A stretch of 64,000 nucleotides of DNA from Actinacidiphila alni. Lineage in GTDB: Bacteria; Actinomycetota; Actinomycetes; Streptomycetales; Streptomycetaceae. The notes beneath the pieces are model-generated. The model made no database searches, was not told where the DNA came from, and saw nothing but the letters and a program-made list of their open reading frames with translations. Positions 22,249-24,518 of the stretch are shown here, in pieces (position 1 is the stretch's first letter; each line of letters begins with the position of its first letter). Made by a program: the position numbers and the translations under genes. The stretch covers positions 1-64,000 of the forward strand of contig NZ_FONG01000009.1 in NCBI RefSeq assembly GCF_900112845.1, written 5' to 3'.

Positions 22249-23655
22249 TCACCATTCGTCCTCGATGTGCCGTCTGCGTCCGGCGAGCACCCCGCAGACG
22301 ATCTGCGGCACCATCAGCGCGGTCATGAAGAGGATCGGCAGCCCCCAGCCGCCGCTCGCCTGGTTGAGCGTGCCGACCAGGATCGGCCCGGGGATGGAGA
22401 TCAGATAGCCGGTGCTCTGCGCGAAGGCGGACAGCCTGACCACTCCCGCGCCGCTGCGCGAGCGCATCCCGATCATCGTCAGGGCCAGCGGGAAGGCGCA
22501 GTTGGCGACGCCGAGCAGCAGCGCCCACACCCACGGCGCGGCGGCCGGGGCGCTCCACAGGCCCGCGTAGCCGATCAGGCCGAAGACGCCGAGCAGCACC
22601 ACCAGCGGGCCCTGGGTGCGCATCCGGGCGGCCAGCGGCGGCAGTACGAAGGACAGCGGCACACCCATCACCATGGTGACGGCGAGCAGCAGGCCCGCTT
22701 TGTCGGCGGACAGGCCGGCGTCCCGGAAGATCTGCGGCATCCAGCCCATGGTGATGTAGGCGGCGGTGGCCTGGAGCCCGAAGAAGCAGGCGAGCGCCCA
22801 GGCGGTGCGGCTGCCGGTGATCCGGCCGGAACCGCCGTCCCCGGCGGCCCGCGTACGGTCAGTGGCCCGCGTACGGTCGGTGGCCTGCGCACGGTCGGCG
22901 GACCGCGTGCTGTCCTCGGCGGGGGTCCCGACCGGCTCGCGCGGCGCGCCCGTACGGTCGCGGACCAGCGGCAGCCAGGGCAGCACGGCGACCGCGGCCA
23001 GGGCGGCCCAGACGCCGAGGCCGAGCCGCCAGCCGTGGCCGAGGGCGTGCGTCATGGGGACGGTGACGGCGGCGGCCAGCGCGGTGCCGAGCGACAGGGC
23101 CATCGAGTACAGGCCGGTCATCGTGCCGACCTTGTCGGGGAAGTAGCGCTTGACGATGACCGGCATCAGCACGTTCGAGACGGCGATGCCGCCGAGCGCG
23201 AGGGCGCTGAGGACCAGGAACAGCACGGTGTTCCCGGCCAGCGGGCGCAGCGCGAGCCCGGCGGTGATGGCGGCCATGCCGACGCAGACCACGGCGCCCG
23301 GGCCGAAGCGGCGGGCCAGCCGGGGCGCGGCGAAGCCGAAGAGCGCGAAGCACGCGGAGGGCACGGAGGTGAGCAGGCCCGCCATGGTGCCGCTCATGCC
23401 GAGGCCGTCGCGGACCTCCTCCAGCAGGGCGCCGAGGCTGGTGATGCCGGGGCGGAGGTTGACGGCGGCCAGCAGGAGTCCGACGACGACGAGGCGGCGC
23501 AGCCAGGGGCTCGCGCCGGTGCCGGGCGCGGCGGCGGACGCGGTACGGGAGGCGCCGGAGGGCGTGGCGGCGGCCTGGACCGGTATCGCGGCCGGTGTCG
23601 GGGTGGCGGTCAGGCCCTTCGCGGTGCCGGGGGCGGGGGATTCGTCATCACGCAT
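22249..23655 (-). CDS. MFS transporter, CynX/NimT family
   Basis: A 468-aa carrier with about 12 membrane helices. The first has the family sequence NLRPGITSLGALLEEVR, and the central cytoplasmic loop (about residues 245-285) carries tandem ATDRTR repeats. The family includes cyanate and 2-nitroimidazole carriers; the substrate here is unknown. ATG at 23655 lies 22 nt from the divergent fadR-type gene across a palindrome. A minus-strand -10-like TATGAT (23667-23662) predicts a start on the ATG itself. Confidence 0.93.
   Translation of the reverse strand: MRDDESPAPGTAKGLTATPTPAAIPVQAAATPSGASRTASAAAPGTGASPWLRRLVVVGLLLAAVNLRPGITSLGALLEEVRDGLGMSGTMAGLLTSVPSACFALFGFAAPRLARRFGPGAVVCVGMAAITAGLALRPLAGNTVLFLVLSALALGGIAVSNVLMPVIVKRYFPDKVGTMTGLYSMALSLGTALAAAVTVPMTHALGHGWRLGLGVWAALAAVAVLPWLPLVRDRTGAPREPVGTPAEDSTRSADRAQATDRTRATDRTRAAGDGGSGRITGSRTAWALACFFGLQATAAYITMGWMPQIFRDAGLSADKAGLLLAVTMVMGVPLSFVLPPLAARMRTQGPLVVLLGVFGLIGYAGLWSAPAAAPWVWALLLGVANCAFPLALTMIGMRSRSGAGVVRLSAFAQSTGYLISIPGPILVGTLNQASGGWGLPILFMTALMVPQIVCGVLAGRRRHIEDEW
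22846..22917 (-). repeat. 18-bp in-frame tandem repeat inside the MFS gene
   Basis: Three near-identical 18-nt units (22846, 22864, 22882) and a degenerate fourth encode ATDRTR-like hexapeptides in the central loop of the transporter. The period is a multiple of three, so copy-number change would keep the frame. Confidence 0.75.
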
Positions 23656-23659
23656 GCAC

Positions 23660-23676
23660 CCATCATAGAATGATGG
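23660..23676. promoter_or_regulatory. Palindromic operator between MFS and FadR-type genes
   Basis: CCATCAT-AGA-ATGATGG is a perfect inverted repeat. It contains a plus-strand -10 box TAGAAT (23666-23671, predicted start at 23678) and a minus-strand -10 box TATGAT (23667-23662, predicted start at 23655). Both predicted starts are the A of an ATG. A dimeric GntR-type repressor bound here would block both genes. Confidence 0.65.
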
Positions 23677-23677
23677 G

Positions 23678-24364
23678 ATGAATCTCGGTCCCGTGCCCCG
23701 GCACACCACACTCGCCGACCGTACGATCGCCAGCCTCCGCTCCGAGATCACCTCGGGTGCGTGGCCGGTCGGCTCCCGTATCCCCACGGAACCCGAGCTG
23801 GTCGAGCGGCTCGGTGTGGCGCGCAACACCGTGCGCGAGGCGGTGCGGGCGCTCGCGCACAACGGTCTGCTCGACATCCGGCAGGGTTCCGGCACCTATG
23901 TGGTGGCCACCAGCGAGCTTGCCGGTGTGATGCGCGCCCGCTTCGCCGACGCCGATCCGCTGCACGTGGCCGAGCTGCGCGGTTCGCTGGAAGGCACCGC
24001 CGCCGCGCTCGCCGCGCAGCGCAGGACCGACGCCGATCTGCGGCAGCTCGACGCGGCGCTGGAGCGGCGTGAACGGGCCTGGGAGTCCGGCGCCGCCGAG
24101 ATCTTCGTCGAGGCCGACGCGACCTTGCACCTGGCCGTGGTGGCGGCCTCGCACAATGACGTGCTCACCGCGCTCTACGCCGACCTCGGCGAGGTGCTGC
24201 GGGACTTCCTGCGCGCCGACGTGGGCACCGACCTGCGGCCGGAGGACCATCTGGACCACGCCGGACTGGTCACCGCGATCCGCGCCGCCGACCCGGTGAC
24301 GGCGGCGGCCGAGGCCCGCGACCACGCCTTCCACTGCCGCTTCGGCGGCGCGCTCACCCGCTGA
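23678..24364 (+). CDS. GntR/FadR-family transcriptional regulator
   Basis: A 228-aa repressor-type regulator. The N-terminal winged helix-turn-helix is clear (RIPTEPELVERLGVARNTVR, then GLLDIRQGSGTYV, about 33-75). An all-helical FCD ligand domain follows (about 95-225) with likely metal/ligand residues in EADATLHLAVVAASHN and DHLDHAGLVTAI. It probably controls the divergent transporter and itself through the palindrome that overlaps both starts. The message looks leaderless. Confidence 0.93.
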   Translation: MNLGPVPRHTTLADRTIASLRSEITSGAWPVGSRIPTEPELVERLGVARNTVREAVRALAHNGLLDIRQGSGTYVVATSELAGVMRARFADADPLHVAELRGSLEGTAAALAAQRRTDADLRQLDAALERRERAWESGAAEIFVEADATLHLAVVAASHNDVLTALYADLGEVLRDFLRADVGTDLRPEDHLDHAGLVTAIRAADPVTAAAEARDHAFHCRFGGALTR

Positions 24365-24396: not shown

Positions 24397-24439
24397 CACT
24401 GCAGTGCCCCGCACCTGTCCGGTGCGGGGCACTGCAGTG
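24397..24439. terminator. Bidirectional terminator (19-bp perfect stem)
   Basis: Arms 24397-24415 and 24421-24439 are perfectly complementary around the loop TGTCC, between the convergent fadR-type gene and fabI. This is one of the longest perfect stems in the window. Confidence 0.88.
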
Positions 24440-24457
24440 CTTCGTGACGAAGGCGTC

Positions 24458-24518
24458 CGCCGTATGGACACTCGCCGTACGGACACTCGCCGTACGGGAC
24501 GTCCGCCGTACGGTCAGC
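24458..24518. repeat. 15-bp tandem repeats at the fabI 3' end
   Basis: CGCCGTAYGGACACT-like units begin at 24458, 24473, 24488 and 24504 (spacing 15, 15, 16). The last copy runs into the fabI stop codon. A separate GGACAC triplication lies at about 24382-24399. Confidence 0.6.

Follow-up and report, generated by a model that had tools for sequence, protein, structure and literature searches.

The window analysed here, a 64,000-nucleotide stretch of Actinacidiphila alni DNA with a GC content of about 73%, carries a divergently oriented transporter gene and regulator gene whose start codons, at 23655 on the minus strand and 23678 on the plus strand, are separated by only 22 nt (GCACCCATCATAGAATGATGGG, positions 23656-23677; Table 1). 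The transporter scores 421.4 bits against the TIGR00896 CynX model (cutoff 406), placing it among the CynX/NimT MFS proteins, and it also matches MFS_1. The regulator belongs to the FCD class of GntR proteins, with both the GntR helix-turn-helix (PF00392, from about residue 13) and the FCD domain (PF07729) above their gathering scores; its 86.9 bits against the NCBIfam NanR model (cutoff 260) place it outside NanR. Among solved structures, the nearest to it are PdhR-like proteins and other GntR members of modest similarity, from which no ligand can be deduced. Directly 3' of the regulator gene lies a strong inverted repeat (CACTGCAGTGCCCCGCACC..GGTGCGGGGCACTGCAGTG, 24398-24440), which may be a terminator that lacks a T run, and the interval between the regulator and a fabI-like gene contains short CCGTACGGACACTCG-like repeated units (24462-24513).

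Table 1. Features of the divergent transporter-regulator locus (window coordinates; a dot marks features given without a strand)
Feature	Position	Strand	Remarks
CynX/NimT-family MFS transporter gene	22249..23655	-	start ATG 23655-23653; TIGR00896, MFS_1
Rightward -35-like element TCGTCA	23642..23647	+	inside transporter gene; 18-bp spacer; 9/12 matches
Palindrome CCATCAT-AGA-ATGATGG of the preliminary description	23660..23676	.	present; all seven pairs in only 44/139 orthologous loci
Conserved 24-bp block CCATCATAGAATSATRGGATGANT	23660..23683	.	predicted operator, both -10 boxes and regulator start codon
Three 8-bp repeats ATCATAGA / ATSATRGG / ATGAWTNN	23662..23685	.	third overlaps regulator start codon
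Leftward -10 box TATGAT	23662..23667	-	predicted +1 at 23655; nearly invariant across 139 loci
Rightward -10 box TAGAAT	23666..23671	+	predicted +1 at 23678; sigma70-like match
GntR-family FCD-domain (FadR subfamily) regulator gene	23678..24364	+	start ATG 23678-23680; PF00392, PF07729
Candidate leftward -35 element GGGACC	23687..23692	-	inside regulator gene here; 3/6, 19-bp spacer, weak

A preliminary description of this DNA had placed a palindrome between the two ATGs, and we find it there, as the sole match at up to two mismatches within the window (0.03 expected from shuffled sequences). Bare inverted repeats of the same 7-3-7 form are not rare, with 15 in the window, close to the number predicted from composition, of which only this one has an A+T content of at least 10/17. 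The pattern AnnnTAnnnT occurs five times in the window, only here flanked on each side by a start codon at leaderless distance, and the complete arrangement CAT-N6-AnnnTAnnnT-N6-ATG is found at one place in the 8.27-Mb genome, this one, with about 0.1 estimated from base composition. The 7-3-7 repeat alone is ordinary, but its combination with the start codons is not. The locus also appears to be one small target, since a search of the genome at up to three mismatches finds no second copy of the site; we accordingly reject a regulon of further sites. The only two-mismatch match to the palindrome in the genome (G000:C20:421021) does not fit the 24-bp block and was discarded.

The two -10 boxes that had been proposed are present and overlap in the TA at 23666-23667, with exactly 6 nt between each box and its ATG. 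Both are nearly invariant across 139 distinct loci, the TAGAAT columns changing only at G23668, which is C in four. A sigma70 promoter scan of 500 bp returns a single site, TCGTCA-18-TAGAAT (shuffle mean 0.0). Both -35 candidates lie inside the opposite gene in the window, as had been claimed. The leftward one is a poor match here; in most Streptomyces it reads TGGACA, and the KGTCCA columns at 23687-23692 are partly conserved. With predicted starts 23 bp apart, the arrangement has the geometry of bidirectional promoters, which are defined by divergent start sites 7-25 bp apart (PMC10268837), and this geometry supports the earlier suggestion that the two promoters would not be open together, through mutual exclusion of polymerases. 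On both sides the -10 box stands 6-7 nt from the start codon with no Shine-Dalgarno sequence, as in a pair of leaderless genes.

The conserved block is longer than the palindrome and tracks the regulator gene. Over the 139 loci, the first 80 of which were chosen by protein similarity and part of the remainder by the block pattern itself, columns 23662-23681 are nearly invariant, with exceptions at 23672 (C/G) and 23675 (G/A), and the flanks vary freely; all 80 orthologous loci picked by protein similarity carry the block. A pattern scan allowing up to three mismatches finds it in 376 of 396 Streptomycetaceae genomes, nearly always in one copy, and the reversed pattern, used as a control over the family genomes, gives one match. 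Among 184 family genomes searched both ways, every one of the 178 with a regulator ortholog has the block, and every one of the six without an ortholog lacks it. Nineteen of the 20 block-less genomes have no regulator ortholog, and in the other the gene is cut at a contig end: the block is lost together with the regulator gene. At two loci that have lost the regulator and kept the transporter ortholog (L184 and L202), CATGAT-N6-ATG still stands ahead of the transporter. We rejected a protein-coding cause of the conservation, as the minus frame reads TGA where 23672 is C and the plus frame reads TAG. An ATTGG..CCAAT pair downstream in many Streptomyces was rejected as the operator, being absent in the window's clade and not general.

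Paralogous GntR/FCD genes keep a related block, TAGGATGACYGG, ahead of the regulator, and their sites take the form GTTGTAGG / ATGACYGG / (ATGAC or GCAAY), in the same register and with the same 8-bp period. In the paralogs examined that stand in tandem with a transporter, TAGGAT is present and the leftward TATGAT is absent, and five same-genus paralogs have leaderless starts of the form TAGGAT-N6-ATG. At same-genus paralogous GntR/FCD genes (L213 and L216-L219), the ATG lies six bases past a -10-like box in an operator-like block (GTTGTAGGATGACCGG-ATG), and at L226-L229, L231, L232 and further paralog loci the GntR/FCD gene is often preceded by two tandem copies of the block GTTGTAGGATGACCGGGCAAG, spaced by about 23 bp.

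In 137 of the 139 loci a transporter start codon (135 ATG, 2 GTG) lies at 6-7 nt from TATGAT, and ATG at this distance in 135/139 suggests that the leaderless transporter is ancestral. The minus-strand frame is open upstream of the transporter ATG in the window; one relative, which has C at 23672, carries a stop there, so this upstream frame does not belong to the conserved gene. For the regulator, the leaderless state appears confined to the clade of the window (Actinacidiphila with its close relatives; 27 sequences), and in other Streptomycetaceae the gene starts 20-170 nt downstream, usually behind a Shine-Dalgarno sequence. The earlier proposal that both mRNAs would be leaderless thus fits the transporter generally and the regulator in this clade, but not the regulator elsewhere. 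On the regulator tree, the leaderless state takes two changes, within or adjoining Actinacidiphila. The AUG at 23678 is itself kept in 136/139 loci; in leadered Streptomyces (e.g., L022, L031, and L050), the mRNA predicted from the block ATG would have AUG at its very 5' end and might encode a short leaderless peptide that overlaps the start of the regulator, and a 59-nt regulator leader is constant in 30 sequences from such loci. We do not claim a leaderless upstream open reading frame in these relatives, as the distinct leader lengths (leaderless lengths 0 and 6 set aside) divide 26:21:15 modulo 3, which is not convincingly skewed.

From the layout, conservation, single copy, co-loss with the regulator, and start-codon spacing observed here, we infer start sites, binding, repression, and a ligand response. 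We consider it likely that the 22 bp between the start codons form a bidirectional sigma70-type promoter that overlies the operator of the neighboring GntR/FCD regulator and is shut by that regulator in both directions. RNA polymerase would load in one orientation at a time, the -10 boxes overlapping on their common TA step, and transcription would start at 23655 for the transporter or at 23678 for the regulator, each mRNA beginning at the A of its AUG. The regulator is predicted to bind the 24-bp block, covering the start codon of its own gene as well as the two -10 boxes, and would thereby repress the transporter and itself together until released by a ligand, which would probably be either a small carboxylate or the compound that is transported.

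The preliminary description took the 17-bp palindrome, centred on 23668, as a one-dimer operator and the functional unit, which we regard as unlikely. Although it is perfect in the window and in 44/139 loci, and six of its pairs persist in 81-100% of loci, the seventh, 23664-23672, is disrupted in 62%, and invariant positions reach 23681, outside the palindrome, with the block extending 7 bp beyond it. The start codons do abut the palindrome, as had been noted, but the conserved block contains that of the regulator rather than merely adjoining it. Identity at lag 8 is 0.66, against 0.03-0.40 at other lags from 3 to 14, and the dyad axes at 23668 and 23672 and the period-8 direct repeat score 0.66, 0.64, and 0.66, respectively; inverted and direct repeats are not cleanly separable here, and these readings coincide in part, since ATSAT is almost self-complementary. 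We prefer to describe the block as three copies of an 8-bp unit rather than as one dyad, since the A at 23675 in 15 loci breaks a second palindrome pair yet improves the 8-bp repeat, and since the paralogs keep the same register. The three repeats may accommodate more than one dimer. The conserved block contains no GT..AC core of the kind found in FadR-subfamily operator boxes (TKGT/ACMA, with GT and AC 2-3 nt apart), so its predicted assignment to the adjacent regulator, outside the usual consensus of that subfamily, rests on conservation and co-loss.

A somewhat less probable alternative still is that the block is the regulator's operator and nothing else, with promoters farther out inside either gene and the likeness to -10 boxes a by-product of A+T richness. 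The block is indeed much longer than two -10 boxes require, and regulators of other clades have leaders and Shine-Dalgarno sequences; against this, neither start here leaves room for a Shine-Dalgarno sequence, the transporter ATG is held at its fixed distance from TATGAT, and the tandem paralogs keep TAGGAT without the leftward box. We give least credence to the idea that only the transporter promoter is leaderless and that the regulator is made from a start farther upstream or by translation from GTG 23693. Most orthologs outside the clade do align only from about residue 7, but an in-frame TAG at 23666-23668 means that no start is possible further upstream, and no Shine-Dalgarno sequence precedes 23693. 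Moreover, that codon, the sixth of the gene, is CTG, CTC, GTA, GTC, or ATG in relatives, and many clade members have no start codon at this position, while all 27 leaderless loci share ATG 23678 and an uninterrupted frame.

The bidirectional promoter-operator that we favor has a precedent for each of its steps, in bidirectional promoters, single-site FadR-type divergons, leaderless mRNAs, and NanR dimers on repeats. It resembles the bidirectional promoters of Warman, Grainger, and colleagues (PMC10268837, PMC12825309) in its predicted opposite-strand starts, overlapping -10 elements, and exclusive polymerase loading; those starts are mostly 18 bp apart with the -10 largely in common, whereas only the TA is common here, and each predicted start falls on a start codon. 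PacrA/acrR, too, joins a transporter with its repressor, and AcrR represses both RNAs there (PMC12825309), as the regulator would do here; in Escherichia coli, basal activity was too low for polymerase competition at the five promoters tested (PMC12825309). FadR-subfamily GntR divergons also place one site, regulating both, between a divergent regulator and a structural gene, usually with a GT..AC core and TKGT/ACMA consensus (PMC4494728), unlike the block here, which lacks these boxes, sits in a 22-bp intergenic region, and overlaps a start codon. NanR, an FCD-type GntR regulator, binds as several dimers to short, closely spaced repeats, (GGTATA)3, rather than to one palindrome (PMC8012715); the repeat differs from ours, and NanR cooperativity needs a 32-residue N-terminal extension that is absent from the regulator here. 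Leaderless mRNAs make up 21% in Streptomyces coelicolor (PMC4895711) and are known in mycobacteria too (PMC4633059), with a -10 box followed by AUG at +1 as predicted here, where, in contrast, two would stand back to back from one promoter.

The locus would be a very compact natural two-way switch, and it comes with built-in evolutionary controls, namely one block whose regulator is leaderless in one clade and has a leader in relatives, and tandem paralogs with a similar block but no leftward -10, which make polymerase competition and leaderless translation testable by single-base changes in a soil bacterium that is harmless. More tentatively, and with rather less than even confidence, we suggest that two promoters are united in one 24-bp block with an operator whose 8-bp tandem repeats depart from the usual FadR-subfamily consensus and with a start codon that the third repeat supplies. 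If so, repression, promoter choice, and leaderless translation would be fixed by the same bases, and the leaderless regulator would have arisen in Actinacidiphila by a deletion bringing the operator's own ATG in frame. The block further provides a predicted binding motif for a regulator that almost all genomes of the Streptomyces family encode.
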